Shown here: piece after piece, positions 47,953-63,546 of the stretch
Layout of the letters: each line of letters begins with the position of its first letter
Numbering within the stretch: the stretch's first letter is position 1
Origin: Blastocatellia bacterium
GTDB lineage: Bacteria > Acidobacteriota > Blastocatellia > RBC074
Direction: 5' to 3'
DNA: 64,000 nucleotides
Assembly (NCBI GenBank): GCA_016789725.1
Contig: JAEUQN010000010.1
Location: forward strand, 1-64,000
Position numbers and translations under genes: made by a program
Notes under the pieces: model-generated
What the model saw: the letters and a program-made list of their open reading frames with translations, nothing else
Told to the model about the DNA's origin: nothing
Databases searched by the model: none

Positions 47953-50694
47953 TTACATCTCTACCCCGTGACATTTCTTGAATTTCTTGCCGGAACCGCA
48001 CCAGCAAGGGTCGTTACGCCCCACTTTAGGTTCCGTACTGACGTACGTTTTGGGTGCGCCAGATTCCTGCGACCCCGCTGCCGCGACACTGGCATTGGCT
48101 TTCGTGAAGGTTACTTCGCCGCGACGCGGGCGACGGCGTTGCAATTGCTCCTCGGGAGGCGTTTCCAGCACAAATTGTGTGCGATAAAGACGGCGCACCG
48201 TTTCGCTGTCAATGCGTCCCAGCATTCCCTCAAAGAGAGAGAAGGACTCTTTCTTATATTCGACCAGCGGGTCTTTTTGCCCATAGCCGCGCAGATTGAT
48301 ACCTTCTTTCAAATGGTCAATCGCAAGCAAGTGATCTTTCCACTGTGCGTCTACGATATTGAGCATCGTGAATCGCTCGTAATAACGCATTGCCTCCGCA
48401 CCGACCATCGCCTCTTTTTCTGCATAGGAGGTCTTCAGCTTTTCCCAAATCGCCTCGCGCAAACTATGTTGGTCAAGTACCTCCGGGTTGATGCCCGCTT
48501 CATCCAGGTCAAGGCCAAATTGATCCAGAATTTGAATCTTCAGGCCGTGGGCGTCACTGTCAGCATTGCCGCTGAAGTGCATTTCGATAATGGCATCCAG
48601 CTGCTCTTCTGCCATTTCCTGAATTTGTGTGCCGAAATCGCCTTGCTCTAACAAATCACGGCGCAGGCTGTAAATCGTGCTGCGCTGCTTGTTCATTACA
48701 TCATCGTATTTGATGAGGTGTTCGCGGATGGTGAAGTTGTGGCCTTCGACGTTCTTTTGTGCGGCTTCGATGCGTTTGGTGACGAGTTTGGATTCAATTG
48801 CTACGCCTTGCTCCATTCCCAGCTTAGCCATCACCGAGCGCAACCGATCTCCCGCAAAGATCCGCATCAGATCGTCTTCAAGCGAAAGGAAGAAGCGGGA
48901 TTCGCCAGGGTCTCCCTGACGACCGGCGCGACCACGAAGCTGATTGTCAATGCGGCGGGATTCGTGGCGTTCCGAACCAAGAATGTATAACCCCCCAAGT
49001 CCGATGACTTCTCTGTGCTCAGCTTCGATTTGTGGTTTGACCTTTTCAATGGCGACATCGAGCTGTTCTGGCGTCGCTTCGTCAGGATCAATTTCCTGTC
49101 GTTTGAGCTGTTCGCGGCCCAGGAACTCCGCGTTGCCGCCAAGCAAAATGTCGGTTCCGCGACCAGCCATGTTTGTTGCAATCGTCACCGCGCCCTTGCG
49201 TCCGGCTTGCGCGACAAACTCGGCTTCGCGTCCTGCATTTTCGGGTTTGGCGTTGAGCAGGTTGTGCTTGATATTCAATTTCTGAAGTCGCCGCGAAATG
49301 ATTTCCGAATTTTCGACCGAAGCTGTACCCACCAGCACCGGTTGGCCTTTCTCGTGCAGCGATTTGATTTCTTCTGCAATGGCCTCCCACTTTTCTTCGA
49401 GCGTGCGATAGATCACATCAGGGTGATCTTTGCGGACCATCGCGCGATGCGTTGGGATGCTGGTGACATCAAGATTATAAATCTTAGCGAACTCCACCGA
49501 TTCCGTTTCCGCTGTTCCAGTCATCCCGGAAAGTTTGTGGTACATGCGGAAATAATTCTGAAGCGTGATGGTTGCGTAGGTCTGCGTTTCCTTTTCGATT
49601 TTGACGCCTTCTTTGGCTTCGACCGCTTGATGCAACCCATCCGACCAGCGACGGCCCGGCATTACGCGTCCGGTGAATTCGTCTACAATTACGACCTCAC
49701 CCTCGCGGATAATGTACTGTTTATCCAGGTGGTAGAGCGTGTGCGCGACCAACGCTTGTTGCAGGCAATGCAACATTTCCATATTTGACGGATCATACAA
49801 ATTACCGTAGCCCAGCATCTGTTCAGCTTTTTCAATGCCAGCCTCGGTCAGCGTTGCGCTGTGTTGCTTCTCATCCACTTGATAATCAATGTCACGCGTT
49901 AGACGCGGAATCGTATCGTTGGCTTCGTAATACTTGGTCGTTGAATCTTCAGACGCGCCGGAAATGATAAGAGGGGTTCTTGCTTCGTCAATCAGAATGG
50001 AGTCAACTTCGTCTACGATGGCGTAATGATGTCCGCGCTGCACACAAGTGGACAGCTCAAACTTCATGTTGTCGCGCAGGTAATCAAAGCCGAATTCGTT
50101 GTTGGTGCCGTATGTAATGTCGGATTTGTATGCTTCCTGTCGCTCGAAATCATCCAGGTCGTTTTGAATGATGCCGACCGTCAGTCCCAGGAATTTGTAA
50201 ATGCGTCCCATCCATTCGGCATCACGTCTGGCGAGATAATCGTTGACCGTGACAACGTGAACACCTTTGCCGACCAGTGCATTCAAATATGCGGGCAGCG
50301 TGGCCACCAGTGTTTTACCTTCACCGGTTCGCATTTCGGCGATCATTCCTTTATTCAGAACCATCCCGCCAATCATCTGCACGTCAAAATGACGCATTCC
50401 GGTAACGCGTACCGACGCCTCGCGGACACAGGCAAACGCTTCCGGCAGAATTTCTTCAAGTGCTTCAAGTTCAAGCTGCCGATAAGCGTCGCGCGAAAGT
50501 TCTTCTGAACCTTCCAGCCGTTTGGCTAAACGTTCCTTGAATTCCGTCGTTTTCCCGCGCAATTCGTCATCGGACAGTTTTTGGAAAGAAGGTTCCAGCG
50601 CATTGATTTGCGCGACTACCGGGAACAGCTTTTTCAGTAAGCGTTCATTGGCAGAACCAAATATTTTAGTTAGAGCTTTTTCTACGGCGTTCAT
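47953..50694 (-). CDS. secA: Preprotein translocase ATPase SecA
   Basis: Motor of the SecYEG export pathway. 913 aa from the ATG at 50694 ([20 protein letters not shown]), with AAGG 8 bases upstream; a 50-codon upstream extension overlaps the promoter and was rejected. DEAD motor with '[20 protein letters not shown]' near residue 122, '[18 protein letters not shown]', DEVD in '[20 protein letters not shown]', '[14 protein letters not shown]', '[20 protein letters not shown]'. The C-terminal zinc-binding SEC-C motif '[14 protein letters not shown]' is complete, so SecB/ribosome contact is expected. The same motif appears at the start of the OGT-like protein at 59889. Confidence 0.97.
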
Positions 50695-50771
50695 GGAAAT
50701 ACCTTGCTGAATTGATGTCTCGTGGACAAGAGAAAGATAAGAAAGACCGGGGGCTAGGCATGCAATGGGGG

Positions 50772-50801
50772 ATTCTAGTTGACCGAGACAGAGAGCGTCA
50801 A
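50772..50801 (-). promoter_or_regulatory. secA promoter
   Basis: On the minus strand TTGACG (50796-50801) and TAGAAT (50772-50777), 18 bp apart, five of six bases matching in each. The secA ATG is about 75 bp downstream. Confidence 0.6.
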
Positions 50802-50821
50802 GCATTGGTTTTGGGCTGGCT

Positions 50822-50849
50822 TTGTAATCTGCTGTCGGAGGCATATAAT
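50822..50849 (+). promoter_or_regulatory. Promoter of the APC permease operon
   Basis: TTGTAA (50822-50827) and a perfect TATAAT (50844-50849), 16 bp apart; the start ATG is at 50895. The divergent secA promoter lies 21 bp away. Confidence 0.6.
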
Positions 50850-55535: not shown

Positions 55536-57950
55536 ATGCGTGATCTGTCGGGTCATTCGCATCGCCCCCGTCTGCGTTATAAGCGCAACGCCTCGTCTCA
55601 TTGGAAAAAAATGGCTCATCTCTTGTTAAGTGTGGCTTTGATCGCCAGCGTCTTGCGATGGGATCAGCCGGTTCAGGCGGGGACCTCGCTGGCCGTTACT
55701 CCGAGCGGAAAAGAGGTGGCCTGGCGTGGCGGAACGACCATTACCTATCACGTGGATCAGGGGCCGCTCGGCCCGCTCAGCAACGAACAAGCGGTGACGA
55801 TGGTAGATGAATTATTCGGCCTTTGGCAGAATGTCCCATCCGCGAGCTTGAGTCTGCAACGCGCAGGGGCCTTACCCGTTGACGTGACTTCCGCGAATTA
55901 TGCGAGCTATCGCACGAATAGCGCGGATTCTTACCACCCGATTATCTTCGATACAGATGGGTCCATTACTGATGCCGTATTTGGTGTAGGCGCGAGCGAT
56001 TTTACAGCGGGGTTTTCCGGTCCCAGTTGGGTTGTTGGCGGATTTAGTGATGGCGAGATTGTGGACGCTTCCGCTGTGTTGAATGCCAAGTTTCTGACCA
56101 GTGGTTACGGGTCGCTGACGGAGTTCAAAGGCATCATGCTCCACGAATTCGGACATTTTCTTGGCATTGGGCATTCACAGGGAAATATTGGGACCGCCTT
56201 CGACCGCGAGGTTCTTTTCAACAACAATCACACGTTACCGATTATGTTTCCGATTTCATTGGGTGACCGTCCGGTAGAGTTAACCTGGGATGACAAATCG
56301 CAGGCAACGCGACTGTATCCAGGTGCTACGGCCAACGCGAGTGGGACCATCAAAGGTCGTGTGTACTTAGCGGATGGCACGACTCCCTTTCAAGGTGCAA
56401 ATGTCGTTGCTCGTCGGGTGGATGATCCGCTCATTGTCGTGGCTACTTCGGTCTCAGGGTTTTTATATCGAGGGACAGGTACCAATGCGAGTCGCGGCAC
56501 GTTGGATTCCGCGTATCAAGGCTACTTTGAAATCTCTGGTTTGCCGGCTGGAAATTACACGGTCGAAGTCGAACCCATTCACCCCGGTTTGGTTAGCGGT
56601 TCCTCGGTTGGCCCGCTTGATCCACCTGTAGATTTACCCGGCCCGGCGGAGTATTACAGCGGCGGCGAAGAATCGAATAGTGACACCTCCACCAGCGCCA
56701 AGCTCGTGTCTGTTAGTGGCGGGCAAACGGTCGAAAACATCAACGTGATTCTCAACAATTCTCCATTGCCTGCGATGAGCGAAAGTGAGCCGAACAGCAG
56801 CATTGCCGCTGCCAATGAAATCACTCTGCCTATTTTTATCAGCGGAAATGTCAGCGCCGGAGATGCTGGCGTGAATGATTCAGTATCGGGCCAAAGCGTA
56901 AAGGATTTTTATTCGTTTACGGCTGAAGCCAACGATTGGGTGACAATTGATTTAAATTACGGCACGCCGAGCGCCGATTTATCGTTGTATTTATACAACA
57001 ACAGCAACCAACGCGTTGCGCTTTCCGTCCCGTGTTTATACGGTTCCGGCTGTCCCGGCTCACGTCAAATCGGCCCAATGAAAATGCCCACCGCAGGCAA
57101 ATATACCATTGGCGTTGGCTCGAATTCTGGTTCAGCCAGCTACACCTTGCAGGTGACAGGGCAGCGTAACTACAACGGCAGCGCGACAACTGTGAATGGG
57201 GCAAGTTTTCTGTCCGGCGGCGCGATGGCTCCTGATACGATTGCTTCTGTGTTTGGGGTGAATTTGACAAGCAGCACCGTCCTGGCCACAGCCGGGCAAG
57301 CACTGCCCACCGAACTTGGTGGTGTTCGCGTGGAAGTGAATGGCGTGGCTGCACAATTGTTTTTCGTTTCGCCCAATCAGCTCAACTATCTGATTCCTTC
57401 GGGGACGGTAGCCGGTACGAAAGGCGTCGTCGTAAAAAATGCGGCAGGCGAAGTGGCGCGCGGTCAGATCGAAGTTTCGCCCATTTCTCCGGCCTTTTTC
57501 ACTGCCGCGCAAAATGGCTCCGGCGTGCCATCGGGCTATATCACGCGCGTTGCAGCGGGGACCTCGCAATTTTCGGACGAGCAGATAGTCAGTTTTGCGG
57601 GCGGCGGCGTGACCCCAATCACGATTGATCGGCGCAATGATCAGATTTTCCTGATTCTCTTTGGCACCGGCATTCGCTACGCGCCGAATACAAATGCGGC
57701 CAATGATATTGCGCTGGCGGGCGGCGGCACCTTGCTCAATGTGGCTGAAAGTATCGAAGTCACCATTGGGGGCAAAGTCGCCAGAGTTGATTTTGCGGGG
57801 CCGCAAGGCCAATTTTACGGCTTGGACCAGTTGAATGTGCTGATCCCCGCAGATGCTGTTGCCAGTCCGACCGCACCCGTCATTATCAAAGTCCGCGATG
57901 CCAACGGCAATCTTGTGACCGCGAATCAGATGACGATTGCATTACAGTAA
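55536..57950 (+). CDS. Exported matrixin-type metalloprotease with PPC and TIGR03437-like C-terminal domains
   Basis: 804 aa. A long basic N-region precedes the signal helix ('MAHLLLSVALIASVL', about residues 28-42). Catalytic zinc site HEFGHFLGIGH (His 203, 207 and 213; H-E-x-x-H-x-x-G-x-x-H) with 'MFPISLG' as Met-turn region. Then a carboxypeptidase-regulatory-like part ('GTIKGRVYLADGTTPFQGAN'), a PPC domain (about residues 405-545, 'SEPNSSIAAANEI', 'VKDFYSFTAEANDWVTIDLN') and a final TIGR03437-like domain (about 550-804, starting at 'VNGASFLSGGAMAPDTIASV' with 'VSPNQLNYLIP', 'LFGTGIRYAP' and 'GLDQLNVLIP'). AGGAG lies 8 bases before the ATG. The last domain is strongly associated with Solibacter-type Acidobacteria. 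Confidence 0.92.
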   Translation: MRDLSGHSHRPRLRYKRNASSHWKKMAHLLLSVALIASVLRWDQPVQAGTSLAVTPSGKEVAWRGGTTITYHVDQGPLGPLSNEQAVTMVDELFGLWQNVPSASLSLQRAGALPVDVTSANYASYRTNSADSYHPIIFDTDGSITDAVFGVGASDFTAGFSGPSWVVGGFSDGEIVDASAVLNAKFLTSGYGSLTEFKGIMLHEFGHFLGIGHSQGNIGTAFDREVLFNNNHTLPIMFPISLGDRPVELTWDDKSQATRLYPGATANASGTIKGRVYLADGTTPFQGANVVARRVDDPLIVVATSVSGFLYRGTGTNASRGTLDSAYQGYFEISGLPAGNYTVEVEPIHPGLVSGSSVGPLDPPVDLPGPAEYYSGGEESNSDTSTSAKLVSVSGGQTVENINVILNNSPLPAMSESEPNSSIAAANEITLPIFISGNVSAGDAGVNDSVSGQSVKDFYSFTAEANDWVTIDLNYGTPSADLSLYLYNNSNQRVALSVPCLYGSGCPGSRQIGPMKMPTAGKYTIGVGSNSGSASYTLQVTGQRNYNGSATTVNGASFLSGGAMAPDTIASVFGVNLTSSTVLATAGQALPTELGGVRVEVNGVAAQLFFVSPNQLNYLIPSGTVAGTKGVVVKNAAGEVARGQIEVSPISPAFFTAAQNGSGVPSGYITRVAAGTSQFSDEQIVSFAGGGVTPITIDRRNDQIFLILFGTGIRYAPNTNAANDIALAGGGTLLNVAESIEVTIGGKVARVDFAGPQGQFYGLDQLNVLIPADAVASPTAPVIIKVRDANGNLVTANQMTIALQ

Positions 57951-58031: not shown

Positions 58032-59249
58032 ATGACTTCACTGAAGCCCATCAAAAAACTTGTTCATAAAGCCAAGGCAATTCACGAACGTCACCGCGAA
58101 CGCCATCGCCCGAGCGGCTTTGGTTTCGCGCTGGCAGACAGCATTGAATATCTCGACGCCGCACGCTGGGACGCCGTGACACACGATTCATCAGTGTATT
58201 TGTCGCGGCCTTATTTGCGCGTGTTGGAATCCGCCGGGCCGGAAAATTTGCGGCAACGGTATGCCTTGATTTTTCAGGGCCGCGAACCCGTCGCCACTGT
58301 TGCTGCGCAAGTCGTCACGATCAGCGCCGCCAAATTGCCCAAAAGCAAAACGGCACAGGCTGTCACCAAACCACTTGAACGGCTCGAAGAACGAATGCTG
58401 GTGTGCGGCAATTTATTGTCCTGGGGCATGCACGGTGTGAGCTTCGCTCCGAACGTGGATCGCGCTGAAGTCTGGCCTGCCGTGGCTGAAGCGTTGTACC
58501 GCATTCGCCGCGCTGACCGCCTGTTTGGTGATACAGATTTGGTGATGCTGAAAGATGTGCCGCCCGAACACACAACGGGCATCGAAGCCCTGAAACGCTT
58601 TTCGTACCGCGAACTGGAAACCGAGCCGAATATGGTATTGCGGATTTCGTCCGCCTGGAAAAGCTACGAGGATTATCTGGCAAGCTTGACCTCAAGCTAT
58701 CGCAAGACTGCACGGAAAATCACAAAGGATGTTGAGGCTGCCGGAGGCCGCGTCGAACGCCTGAACACGGATGAAATCATCAATAACGGCGGGGTGATTC
58801 ACGACTTGTATGGTAAGGTTCACGAACGCCAGAAGCTGCGGCTGATTACGCTCTCGCCCGATTTTATTCCTGCCTTAGCCGCAACCTTTGGGGACGACTT
58901 TCGCTGCAACGTAATTCGCAAAGACGATGAAACACTCGGCTTCGTCACCACGCTTAAAGATGGCAAGACCGCTGTCGGCTATTACATTGGTTTTGATAGT
59001 GCGGCGAACGCAGAGATGCCGATTTACTTTCGCTTGCTGCAAGCCGTGATCGAAGACGCGATTGCAATGGGCTGCGAACGCTTGTCGCTCGGTCGCACTG
59101 CGCTGGAACCCAAAGCCCGTTTGGGTGCCAGGCCCGAACCCATGAGCGTGTGGATTCGGCATCGCATTCAAGCCCTGAATTTGGTAGTGCGTGGGCTTTT
59201 ACAATCCGTTTCGCACGAAGATGCACCGGAGCGAAACCCTTTCAAATAA
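58032..59249 (+). CDS. FemAB/GNAT-like acyltransferase
   Basis: 405 aa, cytoplasmic, with a very basic start ('KLVHKAKAIHERHRERHRPS'). The C-terminal half resembles GNAT_6/peptidoglycan-bridge (FemAB-like) enzymes: 'SYEDYLASLTSSYRKTARK'-like 'YLASLTSSYRKTARKITKDV', 'FRCNVIRKDDETLGFVTTLK', 'AVGYYIGFDSAANAEMPIYF' and 'CERLSLGRTALEPKARLGA'. The ATG at 58032 is the first start after the palindrome. Such proteins acylate peptidoglycan precursors, lipids or polysaccharides (compare CelD/BcsL-like). Neighbours at 59889-64000 suggest a surface-glycan role. Substrate unknown. Confidence 0.75.
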   Translation: MTSLKPIKKLVHKAKAIHERHRERHRPSGFGFALADSIEYLDAARWDAVTHDSSVYLSRPYLRVLESAGPENLRQRYALIFQGREPVATVAAQVVTISAAKLPKSKTAQAVTKPLERLEERMLVCGNLLSWGMHGVSFAPNVDRAEVWPAVAEALYRIRRADRLFGDTDLVMLKDVPPEHTTGIEALKRFSYRELETEPNMVLRISSAWKSYEDYLASLTSSYRKTARKITKDVEAAGGRVERLNTDEIINNGGVIHDLYGKVHERQKLRLITLSPDFIPALAATFGDDFRCNVIRKDDETLGFVTTLKDGKTAVGYYIGFDSAANAEMPIYFRLLQAVIEDAIAMGCERLSLGRTALEPKARLGARPEPMSVWIRHRIQALNLVVRGLLQSVSHEDAPERNPFK

Positions 59250-59776: not shown

Positions 59777-59888
59777 GCCCGCGACTATTGAGGCTGTTCG
59801 TATGATTCACATCGTCCTCACTACCGCTTTTTATCCCGCTTTTCTTTACTTGTCCCCCTGCTAATCAGCAAGCTCGTGGAGTCTTCAT

Positions 59889-62219
59889 TTGACGAAACCT
59901 CAACTTCAATCGGCGTTGCCCGGTCGCAACGATCTTTGTTCCTGCGGAAGCCAGAAGAAATTCAAAAAATGTTGTGGTCGTGCCGACGCCACTTCGTTGC
60001 CTTTTGTCACATCGCCTGTTGAAACGGCCTCCTCGTTGTGGGGTGCGGCACGACAAGCGTTTGAGGCTGATGATTTGGCGCGGGCGCAGGCGAACTGCGA
60101 CGCGCTTTTGCAGCTTGAATCAAAGCACGCTGATGCGTTGCATTTGCGTGCTCTGATTGCGTTTCGACAAGGCGAATACACGACCTCGCTTCAATACGTG
60201 CAACAAGCCATCAAGCTCGCGCCGCGTGTCAGCCTGTACTGCAATTCGTTGGGGTTTATTCAAAAAGAGTTGGGGCGATGGGATGAAGCCGAACAAGCGT
60301 ATCGCAAAGCTTTGCAGCTTGATCCCGACAATGCGATGGCGCATTACAATCTGGGCGAACTATTTACCACGAGTGGGAAAAATGCGGAGGCTGAACCATG
60401 TTATCGAGAGGCGCTTCGTTGCCAACCTGACTTTTACGAAGCGCAGAATAATCTGGGACTCTTGTTATTTCAGGAGAGGCATTACGAACAGGCCGCCGGG
60501 CATTTGGCACAGGCGATTCGGCTTCGTCCCAGCGAAGTGAATACCTATCTCGGACTGGCCCGCACCTTATGCAAGCTCAATCGCTTTGCCGAAGTGGAAG
60601 CCGTTACGCAAGAGGCGATCCGGCGGCGACCTGATGCTGCCGAAGCGTGGCACAATTTAGGTTTCAGTTTACGTGGTCAGGGAAATGTTGCTGGCGCAAC
60701 CACCGCTTACGAAACGGCGTTGCAATTGAATCCGAATTTGTGCGAAAGCCATCTAAATCTGGGCAGCCTATACTACGAAAAAGGATTGGCAGATGTCGCG
60801 CGGCAGCATTTTGCGCACGCTGAAGCCATCAGACCTTTCGATGGTATCAAGCTGCGCAAGGCGCTCTGCGTTCCCGCTTTTTACGATTCCCTCGCACATA
60901 TCAAAGAAGAGCGCGATCAGCTTATCGCCAATCTGGATGGGCTGATGACCGAATCTTTGCGGATCGAATCGCCAGATGAAGAGATTGGATTGACCCCGTT
61001 TTTCCTGGCCTATCAGGGCGAAAACGAAGTTGATCTGTTGAGTCGCATAGGGGATTTATTGCTGAAATCCTGCCCGGCGCTGGGCGATGTTGCGCCGCAT
61101 TGCTTAGCGCCAAAAACAATGTCCACCCACACGGATGGACGTCTTGATATTGGTTTCATCTCGCATTGCTTTGGCAAGCCAGCACATATCGTAAATCGCG
61201 TGATGGCGGGTATTATTGCGAATTGGCCGCGAGATCGGTTTCGGGTAACCGTGTTATCGCCAGGAGAAGTATCGGGCGAGATTCTCCCAGGTTTGCGCGA
61301 AGGAGATCGGGTGGTCAACGTCTCAACACAATGGGTGAGCGCCAAGCGGCAAGTCGCCGACGCGAAACTCGACATTTTGTTGTATGCCGATTTGGGGATG
61401 GACCCCTGGACATATTTTCTATCATTTGCGCGGCTGGCTCCGATTCAATTGGTGATGGGTGGGCATCCGATCACGAGTGGCGTTCCCAATGTGGATTATT
61501 TTCTTTCATCTTCGTATGACGAATTGCCGCAGGCGCAGGATCATTACCGTGAACACCTGATTCAGATGTCGGTGCGTCCGGTGTGTTTTTCTCCTGCGCC
61601 AAAAATGCCGCAGACAAAAACACGCGCCGATTTTGGGATGTCAGAACAGGCGCATATCTACTTATGCCCAATGACGCCATTCAAGATTCACCCTGCCAAT
61701 GATGCTCTGTTTGGCGAGGTGTTGCGGCGCGATCCAGCGGGCGAATTGGTGTTTGTCGTCAATCACCAAACGGAGCTGTGGGCGCGCCTGAAACAACGAT
61801 TTGCCCGCACGATTCCTGATGTTGTAGAGCGCATTCGATACTTGCCCTATATGTCGTTGCTGGATTTGGCAGAAGTGCTACGACTGAGCAATGTGATGCT
61901 GGATACGGTAGGCTTCAATGGCGGAACGACCGCGCTGGAAGCTCTGTCTGTGGGGACACCGATCATCACGTTGCCCGGCGAATTCCTGCGCCAGCGCGGT
62001 ACGTATGCGCATTACAACCAAATCGGCTTGTTCGATTGCGTCGCCAAAGATGAAGCGGATTATGTGCGCTTAGCCACCGAGATTGCGGGTTGTGCGGATC
62101 GGCGCGAGCACATCAAGCAGGAAATCCTGGCGCGCAATTCCGTCTTGTTCGGGCAAATGGGATGGATTCAACCGCTCAGCGAATATTTGCTGGAAGAATT
62201 GGAAAAACGTTGCGGGTAG
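59889..62219 (+). CDS. SEC-C / TPR / O-GlcNAc-transferase-like (SPINDLY type) fusion
   Basis: 776 aa. Residues 11-30 are a SEC-C zinc motif ('GRNDLCSCGSQKKFKKCCG') like the SecA tail. About eight TPR units follow (48-310, e.g. 'WDEAEQAYRKALQLDPDNAM'). The C-terminal half (about 400-770) has the OGT/Glyco_transf_41 landmarks: 'LDIGFISHCFGKPAHIVNRV', 'DILLYADLGMDPWTYFLSFA', 'RLAPIQLVMGGHPITSGVPN', 'YLCPMTPFKIHPANDALF' and 'GFNGGTTALEALSVGTPII'. It probably adds a sugar to protein Ser/Thr; TPRs select substrates. The TTG start is supported by GGAG 7 bases upstream and by the intact SEC-C motif. SEC-C on such an enzyme is unusual and may bring it to nascent or exported proteins. Substrate and sugar unknown. 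Confidence 0.88.
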   Translation: MTKPQLQSALPGRNDLCSCGSQKKFKKCCGRADATSLPFVTSPVETASSLWGAARQAFEADDLARAQANCDALLQLESKHADALHLRALIAFRQGEYTTSLQYVQQAIKLAPRVSLYCNSLGFIQKELGRWDEAEQAYRKALQLDPDNAMAHYNLGELFTTSGKNAEAEPCYREALRCQPDFYEAQNNLGLLLFQERHYEQAAGHLAQAIRLRPSEVNTYLGLARTLCKLNRFAEVEAVTQEAIRRRPDAAEAWHNLGFSLRGQGNVAGATTAYETALQLNPNLCESHLNLGSLYYEKGLADVARQHFAHAEAIRPFDGIKLRKALCVPAFYDSLAHIKEERDQLIANLDGLMTESLRIESPDEEIGLTPFFLAYQGENEVDLLSRIGDLLLKSCPALGDVAPHCLAPKTMSTHTDGRLDIGFISHCFGKPAHIVNRVMAGIIANWPRDRFRVTVLSPGEVSGEILPGLREGDRVVNVSTQWVSAKRQVADAKLDILLYADLGMDPWTYFLSFARLAPIQLVMGGHPITSGVPNVDYFLSSSYDELPQAQDHYREHLIQMSVRPVCFSPAPKMPQTKTRADFGMSEQAHIYLCPMTPFKIHPANDALFGEVLRRDPAGELVFVVNHQTELWARLKQRFARTIPDVVERIRYLPYMSLLDLAEVLRLSNVMLDTVGFNGGTTALEALSVGTPIITLPGEFLRQRGTYAHYNQIGLFDCVAKDEADYVRLATEIAGCADRREHIKQEILARNSVLFGQMGWIQPLSEYLLEELEKRCG

Positions 62220-62967: not shown

Positions 62968-63546
62968 TTATCTTTGGTTTGCTTGCGCCGCACGGAATTC
63001 GCGGTCGAGCAATTCGTATAAATGATGGCTGTGCCAGATGCCGTCTTTCTGAAACTCTTCGATTTGTTCGCCGACATAACGAAACCCGCAACGCTGGATC
63101 AATCGCTGTGATGCCTCATTCACGCCGAAATGACTTACGCAGAGTTTGTGCAGCCCTAATTCCTGAAAGGCGAATTGCATCACGCGCTGGACGGCTGCGG
63201 TCATGATGCCTTGTCCCTGATGCGCACGACCGAGCCAGTAAGCCAGTTCGGCTTTGTTGTAGGTCAACGCGCGATGGCTGCGTGTGAGTGCGATCAGGCT
63301 GACAATGCCGCAAAATGCGCCGTCCTTGAAAATGCCCCACGTCATTCCCTGGCCGGATTCGCGCCGCGTGATTTCGCCCTGCAAAAACGCCAGCGTTTGC
63401 GCTTTGTCGGTGTGCGCTTCCCACGCCATGTATTTCGAGATTTCCGGGTCGGAAATGTCCGGCCAGATCAAGTCAAGGTCGTTGAGTTCCAGTGGTCTGA
63501 GCTTTAAATCGTCTATCATCAAAACCAGGGATGGTTGTGGTTGCAT
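62968..63546 (-). CDS. RimJ/RimL-type GNAT acetyltransferase
   Basis: 192 aa. 'LKLRPLELNDLDLIWPDISD' at the N-terminus, 'AELAYWLGRAHQGQGIMTAA' (CoA loop, about residues 99-118) and 'GLHKLCVSHFGVNEASQRLI' mark the RimJ/RimL subgroup, which acetylates protein N-termini or sugar amines. GAGGAG lies before the ATG at 63546, inside the end of the upstream gene (3 bp gap), so the three minus-strand genes are one operon. Substrate unknown; amino-sugar acetylation would fit the neighbours. Confidence 0.82.
   Translation of the reverse strand: MQPQPSLVLMIDDLKLRPLELNDLDLIWPDISDPEISKYMAWEAHTDKAQTLAFLQGEITRRESGQGMTWGIFKDGAFCGIVSLIALTRSHRALTYNKAELAYWLGRAHQGQGIMTAAVQRVMQFAFQELGLHKLCVSHFGVNEASQRLIQRCGFRYVGEQIEEFQKDGIWHSHHLYELLDREFRAAQANQR

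Follow-up and report, generated by a model that had tools for sequence, protein, structure and literature searches.

An N-terminal SEC-C motif on a TPR-GT41 glycosyltransferase of a Blastocatellia bacterium and its recurrence in other genomes

The window analysed here, a stretch of 64,000 nucleotides from contig JAEUQN010000010.1 of a Blastocatellia bacterium, encodes a protein (Table 1) in which a SEC-C motif, TPRs and a Glyco_transf_41 domain are all recognised by Pfam within one open reading frame. The first-pass annotation, which had described a SEC-C motif joined to a TPR enzyme resembling O-GlcNAc transferase (OGT), was therefore right about the fusion, and right also that SecA, encoded about 9 kb away on the opposite strand of the same window, bears SEC-C, which lies at its C-terminus. 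SecA, the motor of protein export, is the best-known carrier of this small metal-binding motif. The SEC-C motif of the window protein (PGRNDLCSCGSQKKFKKCCGR) has four cysteines spaced CxCx8CC and belongs to PF02810 by both its profile and its four Cys/His ligands, scoring 30.5 bits (E 3.4e-7) against a Pfam gathering threshold of 20.4, and 35.8 bits in a scan of the genome. The TPR families score up to 129.8 bits, and Glyco_transf_41 was found at residues 571-751 with 66 bits (gathering threshold 25). An artefact of gene prediction or assembly was considered and rejected, the identical architecture being present in other genomes. The gene at 55536-57950, likewise in the window, has a large product that carries PPC and Soli_cterm domains and matches matrixin below the cut-off.

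Table 1. Features of the window in and around the SEC-C/TPR/GT41 gene
Feature	Position	Strand	Basis
SecA with C-terminal SEC-C (motif 47965-48018)	47953-50844	-	
FemAB/Acetyltransf_6-like gene, upstream	58032..59249	+	Pfam
GGAG, likely ribosome-binding site, 7 bases 5' of the TTG start	59878..59881	+	read from sequence
SEC-C/TPR/GT41 gene, 776 aa, TTG start	59889..62219	+	
SEC-C motif, residues 13-31, CxCx8CC	59925..59981	+	Pfam PF02810
Linker, residues 32-46, modelled mostly at low confidence	59982..60026	+	AlphaFold2 model
Eight TPR helix pairs, residues 47-314	60027..60830	+	Pfam TPR families; model helices 47-59 to 301-314
GT41 catalytic region used as query, residues 396-776	61074..62216	+	Pfam PF13844, PDB sequence matches, fold matches
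His433, aligned with the conserved GT41 active-site His	61185..61187	+	alignments
Lys599, aligned with the GT41 donor-phosphate Lys	61683..61685	+	alignments
TylF/Methyltransf_24-type methyltransferase, with homologues at the GT41 loci L074 and L075	62229..62942	-	Pfam, homology
GNAT acetyltransferase	62968..63546	-	Pfam; PseH match 32.3 bits (cut-off 93.1)
Partial GH32/43-like gene, extending as far as contig position 64476, with homologues next to the GT41 genes of L104, L126 and L135	63550..64000	-	

The glycosyltransferase part retains the residues by which GT41 enzymes are recognised. His433, which aligns with the histidine of 'FGNHPTSH' in human OGT, is near-invariant and Lys599 is invariant in the alignment of 37 sequences behind the structure model (36 of them kin hand-chosen from 80 loci, see below), and in a 50-row alignment H and K each occupy these positions in 48 of the 50 rows, including all 11 rows with SEC-C; as in OGT, they are presumably the active-site histidine and the donor-phosphate lysine. 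Directly before His433, two residues are inserted in the window protein, and its GHPxTSG stands in place of the (G/A)YPxTSG of human and Xanthomonas OGT. An AlphaFold2 model (mean pLDDT 91.3) consists of the eight TPR pairs followed by a C-terminal glycosyltransferase part, and its best fold matches (Foldseek) are plant SPINDLY and then human OGT, aligned by fold at an identity of about 20%; the predicted arrangement of a TPR superhelix followed by a GT-B domain is that of SPINDLY and of human and Xanthomonas OGT. By sequence, the solved structure closest to the GT region is that of Xanthomonas OGT (80.9 bits), with human OGT and SPINDLY also matching. Thus the GT41 part of the first-pass description stands, but with Xanthomonas OGT nearest in sequence and SPINDLY in fold, UDP-GlcNAc is not to be assumed as the donor. 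Identity with the N-glucosyltransferases (NGT/HMW1C) was rejected, the NCBIfam NGT model scoring 35.5 bits against a cut-off of 1000. By its build, the product is predicted to be a soluble, cytosolic-type TPR-GT41 protein glycosyltransferase. We know of no SEC-C in human OGT, SPINDLY or Xanthomonas OGT. Residues 1-41 of the model, which include SEC-C, have pLDDT mostly below 50, so that the model does not place SEC-C, and this low-confidence N-terminus fits a tag on a flexible linker.

In a scan of the 7.77-Mb draft genome (88.6% complete), SEC-C was found in two open reading frames only, those of SecA and of the window glycosyltransferase, and the GT region of the latter had a single match, at its own locus. 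No match to SecB was found in the same draft, though its SecA bears SEC-C. The SEC-C profile with CxCx8C[CH] is shared with SecA, YecA/UPF0149 and YchJ, but it is C-terminal in SecA and the UPF0149 protein, and in YchJ it is present in two copies of which the best is C-terminal, whereas it is N-terminal in the glycosyltransferases; at residues 13-31, the motif of the window protein does not have the position that characterises the metal-binding domain of SecA, namely the very C-terminal end of an export factor. HMW1C reportedly glycosylates its own adhesin before export, and in a similar manner SEC-C could dock the window enzyme to SecA, SecB or the Sec channel, so that Sec-exported surface proteins such as adhesins would be glycosylated before they leave the cell. 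In favour of this account, which we consider distinctly unlikely, are the binding of SecB and of 70S ribosomes by the SEC-C domain of SecA (PMC6620043; SecB binding also in PMC8076867), the large PPC/Soli_cterm protein with a weak matrixin match encoded at 55536-57950, and the weak match to the NGT model (35.5 bits). It is opposed by the lack of a SecB match in the genome, by the distance of the NGT match from its cut-off, by the lack of any recognised adhesin-secretion gene in the listed neighbourhoods of the window gene and its kin, and by the nature of the recognisable acceptor-like genes of kin loci, which are flagellins. Flagellin is exported by the flagellar type III apparatus and not by Sec.

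The SEC-C profile is also found on unrelated proteins (UPF0149/YecA-type proteins, YchJ and many plasmid proteins), which partly bears out the objection anticipated in the first-pass annotation that SEC-C might be common on unrelated enzymes with no export link. SEC-C is present in 336 of 396 genomes of a sample of the phylum, where the matches listed are mostly in open reading frames of SecA length. When plasmids were searched with a 62-residue SEC-C-bearing query, 929 records (570 of them conjugative) matched under a permissive threshold (E up to 1), and for most of the 60 plasmid matches listed the annotation is that of a SEC-C metal-binding protein, with no role named. SEC-C proteins of no known role have been raised in a review as possible accessory Sec components (PMC8076867). 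The SEC-C/GT41 enzymes enlarge this set, and serve as a warning that SEC-C need not mean Sec. The mycobacterial SEC-C protein Rv0613c/MSMEG_1285, with TPRs in MSMEG_1285, affects the surface exposure of HBHA, a methylated protein whose secretion is thought not to involve Sec (PMC6032435); unlike for the window protein, no glycosyltransferase domain is mentioned in the available parts of that paper. By analogy, it may be regarded as a precedent for a SEC-C/TPR module outside Sec.

Relatives of the GT region were sought at several taxonomic depths. None was found in 57 further genomes from the same family and class, and in the phylum sample 28 of the 395 genomes other than this one had matches, many of them weak; SEC-C was seen in none of the 24 GT41-like open reading frames extracted from these 28 genomes, 6 of the 24 frames being open at the 5' end. 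The upstream FemAB-like neighbour had no match in 18 other relatives. With no GT-region match in those 57 genomes and none to this neighbour in the 18, the window gene seems to sit in DNA that is patchily distributed and lineage-specific. The GT region matches 87 plasmid records (SEC-C is absent from the three best) but no record among 50,697 from phages, and a phage origin was rejected on this basis, the two viral contigs that matched doing so in the SEC-C stretch only.

A pattern-led GT alignment scan of 84,980 species genomes yielded 475 confirmed relatives, and N-terminal SEC-C was found in 2 (L120 and L147) of the best 80 of these, 7 of the 80 being open at the 5' end, where a SEC-C could be hidden. 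In the class to which L147 belongs, GT41-like matches are present in 64 of 274 genomes; 80 regions from 55 of the 64 were surveyed (20 mostly weak places and 9 genomes were left out), and the SEC-C-GT41 fusion was found in 5 of the 55 genomes and not in the other 50. Altogether, 16 of 276 GT41-like open reading frames, copies included, have an N-terminal SEC-C by motif pattern. A near-complete domain is present in 258 of the 276 (19 of the 258 are open at the 5' end and could conceal a SEC-C), giving 261 domains, since some have two, and 247 without copies, of which 11 come from proteins with an N-terminal SEC-C and 236 from proteins without; because the loci were picked by similarity, 11 in 247 is not a prevalence. 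The search for other such fusions, suggested in the first-pass annotation, has thus produced ten further non-redundant proteins, and in all eight of those checked with Pfam, SEC-C above its cut-off, TPRs and Glyco_transf_41 were present. The fusion occurs in seven genomes (that of the window, G419, G420, G636, G662, G627 and G500), with two SEC-C-GT41 genes each in G419, G420, G636 and G662. By these sequence comparisons the SEC-C/GT41 fusion is not a one-off and is a variant of a known enzyme type; searches of open-access literature showed no report of it.

The tagged enzymes are scattered among untagged ones. On a FastTree phylogeny of the 247 domains, SEC-C requires 6 changes, at least 5 of them forced by starred branches, and an IQ-TREE phylogeny of 50 rows again gives 6 changes with at least 5 forced, SEC-C lying on either side of a split with 100% support. 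Constraining the SEC-C rows to one clade costs 697 log-likelihood units (p-AU 1e-57), and a single inherited SEC-C-GT41 family was rejected on these grounds. The trees are quick ones made on a sample, with many unsupported forks and program warnings of long branches, and counts of changes cannot separate gain from loss; since SEC-C is rare on the tree, repeated gain by GT41 enzymes would seem the simpler reading. The window protein itself is on a long branch, and the rows nearest to it by path, at large distances, are mainly cyanobacterial and lack SEC-C. Cyanobacteria have no flagella.

All 11 tagged proteins keep the four cysteines and a basic core within approximately their first 35 residues, and this bears on whether SEC-C has any docking role. 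As an often-shuffled metal-binding motif, widespread in the phylum sample (336 of 396 genomes), present on unrelated proteins and missing from the proteins of 236 of 247 GT41 domains, it could be a neutral passenger that has become stuck at the N-terminus. A passenger would be expected to decay, yet cysteines, basic core and N-terminal place are kept in 11 of 11 proteins that form no single clade, and we therefore hold this explanation to be unlikely.

The surroundings of the window gene consist largely of putative sugar-modification genes. From 62229 to about 71000, the minus strand encodes the TylF-type methyltransferase, the GNAT and GH32/43-like proteins, a second methyltransferase, a hexapeptide acetyltransferase, an AMP-ligase, an SDR protein, a DegT aminotransferase and a GNAT/FemAB-like protein, and by gene content this run looks like a sugar-modification island. 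No homologue of NeuB/PseI, and thus no linked pseudaminic acid pathway of the FlmG type (see below), was found at contig positions 55001-74158, and no flagellar gene was recognised adjoining the window gene. Flagellin (Flagellin_N/C) and FliS are encoded in this genome (G000) on another contig, C144.

Linkage to flagellin is more direct in some of the kin. In the window's own branch, flagellin was found by phmmer, and confirmed by Pfam, in 5 of 80 kin loci, representing about three lineages; this is an uncontrolled raw count, and flagellin was found in none of the other 75 loci. In L068 and L072, flagellin, GT41 and DegT genes occur together (with FliD tested in L068 and FliS in L072), and in L075 flagellin and GT41 genes are accompanied by FliD, FliS and a homologue of the window's methyltransferase. 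L104 and L126 contain GT41 genes, DegT and flagellins, and these two, as well as the short L135, contain genes homologous to the hexapeptide and GH-like ones of the window, with E-values of 3e-55 to 5e-75 over the three loci and of 4e-58 to 5e-75 in L104 and L126. GT41 kin beside flagellin genes occur on both branches of the tree: L240 and L270, the untagged kin closest to the two G662 proteins, follow a Flagellin_N-type gene. Among the seven fusion genomes, flagellin adjoins the fusion in G636 only, where two SEC-C-GT41 genes have flagellin and FliD as neighbours, and genes resembling PseB and PseC (each below its cut-off) are found nearby. The SEC-C-GT41 genes of G420 and G419 occur with PseI (above cut-off in G420, a homologue in G419) and other sugar genes, and those of G662 are next to genes for GDP-mannose dehydratase and a GDP-fucose synthase-like protein (487.8 bits, cut-off 500); no sugar or flagellin gene was recognised near the fusion in G627 or G500. 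At the level of whole genomes, flagellin is present in all six other fusion genomes versus 149 of 274 in the class sample. Within that sample it is present in 46 of 64 GT41-bearing genomes versus 103 of 210 others (p 0.0015, a weak statistic), and in all five fusion genomes, which are too few.

An island containing DegT, hexapeptide acetyltransferase, SDR, AMP-ligase and methyltransferase genes would also suit polysaccharide synthesis. The acceptor could accordingly be a surface polymer or other envelope component of an O-antigen or capsule island, with SEC-C serving only to stabilise or regulate the enzyme, for example by sensing metal or redox state; the non-adjacency of flagellin in this genome agrees with this, as does the suggestion that the metal bound by the SecA domain may be iron (PMC6620043). 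We think it improbable, considering that two of the neighbouring gene families recur with GT41 genes and flagellins in L104 and L126. To our knowledge, moreover, all characterised TPR-GT41 enzymes act on proteins. FlmG, likewise a TPR-containing glycosyltransferase, does so too (PMC7591256).

FlmG of Caulobacter crescentus, a cytoplasmic flagellin O-glycosyltransferase that binds flagellin through its TPR-containing N-terminal part and has the glycosyltransferase as its C-terminal part (PMC7591256), is the closest known system as judged from its description. The window protein resembles it in having a TPR N-terminal part and a C-terminal glycosyltransferase in a soluble, apparently cytoplasmic protein, in the presence of flagellin in the genome, and in having some kin that adjoin flagellin and amino-sugar genes. 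It differs in that SEC-C is not mentioned for FlmG in the available parts of the paper, from the main text of which 'zinc' is absent (PMC7591256), and in that the window gene has no nearby NeuB/PseI and a flagellin that is not adjacent. For want of a NeuB/PseI homologue at contig positions 55001-74158, the window protein is compared with FlmG and not filed as FlmG.

Set beside the observed architecture, the conserved residues, the scattered recurrence of SEC-C, the sugar-gene neighbourhood, the flagellin of the genome and the flagellin linkage of some kin, the reading that we tentatively favour, and that falls somewhat short of probable, is that of an FlmG-like cytosolic TPR-GT41 glycosyltransferase, probably for flagellin, in which SEC-C is a tether with the ribosome as its likeliest partner. 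For the window enzyme we infer acceptor, donor and SEC-C partner as follows. The TPR superhelix would grip an unfolded or new acceptor, most probably the flagellin encoded elsewhere in the genome, and the C-terminal GT-B domain would add an activated sugar to it in the cytosol, ahead of export. The donor would probably be a modified amino sugar made by the adjoining island, with its aminotransferase, hexapeptide acetyltransferase, GNATs, methyltransferases and AMP-ligase. SEC-C, on its flexible linker, would be a small tether gained on several occasions by enzymes of this kind, and by analogy with SecA its likeliest partner would be the ribosome, where the enzyme could wait near nascent acceptor chains.

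Against the FlmG-like reading, no flagellar gene was recognised adjoining the window gene, the flagellin of its genome being on another contig; flagellin was found in only 5 of 80 kin loci, and cyanobacteria are among the nearest kin; G636 alone of the seven fusion genomes has adjoining flagellin, and NeuB/PseI is absent at 55001-74158; and there is the insertion before the histidine, while most GT41 kin do without SEC-C (236 of 247 domains). The first-pass annotation had proposed docking at the ribosome or the translocase, with glycosylation during or before export. Action before export fits the occurrence of GT41 kin beside flagellin and the precedent of FlmG as a cytoplasmic flagellin-modifying TPR glycosyltransferase, and it is likely that proteins are glycosylated ahead of export; for docking to SecB or to the Sec translocase there is no support, there being no SecB match and flagellin not using Sec, and for the same two reasons the ribosome is the better guess as the SEC-C partner, docking there being possible by analogy with SecA.

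A bolder form of the FlmG-like reading would make SEC-C a portable ribosome tag, bolted several times and in different phyla onto the N-termini of TPR-GT41 enzymes for co-translational cytosolic O-glycosylation of flagellin, or a comparable exported protein, while the chain is still nascent and before its chaperone and the export apparatus take over. This is doubtful, but if true it would be a bacterial counterpart, outside Sec, of co-translational glycosylation. How cytosolic O-glycosyltransferases find their acceptors before folding or export is poorly understood, as is the specificity of systems such as that of FlmG (PMC7591256). A recurring small tag with ribosome- and chaperone-binding precedent offers a handle on the question and makes it directly testable.

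Several minor observations were made among the kin. At L282:9756-16315, two overlapping SEC-C-GT41 genes adjoin GDP-mannose dehydratase and a GDP-fucose synthase-like gene, and are flanked by a porin-like gene on one side and PilT/PilU-like genes on the other (the porin-like and PilT/PilU-like assignments by eye). SPINDLY is a fucosyltransferase, and by analogy GDP-fucose may be the donor for the L282 enzymes. GT41-like matches lie within approximately 10 kb of Flagellin_N matches at G494:C15, G624:C1, G517:C61, G445:C44, G593:C46 and G506:C15. G419 and G420 also encode SEC-C/TPR proteins (L167 and L168) whose C-terminal parts run off their contigs, L167 having matches to SEC-C and TPR-type families only (Pfam), and the planctomycete genome of L068 encodes a SEC-C protein (L156) that is TPR-like by eye and has no GT41 match. 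A basic MNRxxRRxxxK-like start is present in 5 of 73 5'-complete GT41 kin open reading frames versus 1 of 1410 other long open reading frames in the loci; the five (L076, L083, L106, L124 and L137) are all alphaproteobacterial, L106, L083 and L076 being from Rhodospirillales, and this start is possibly an alternative tag in the place of SEC-C.
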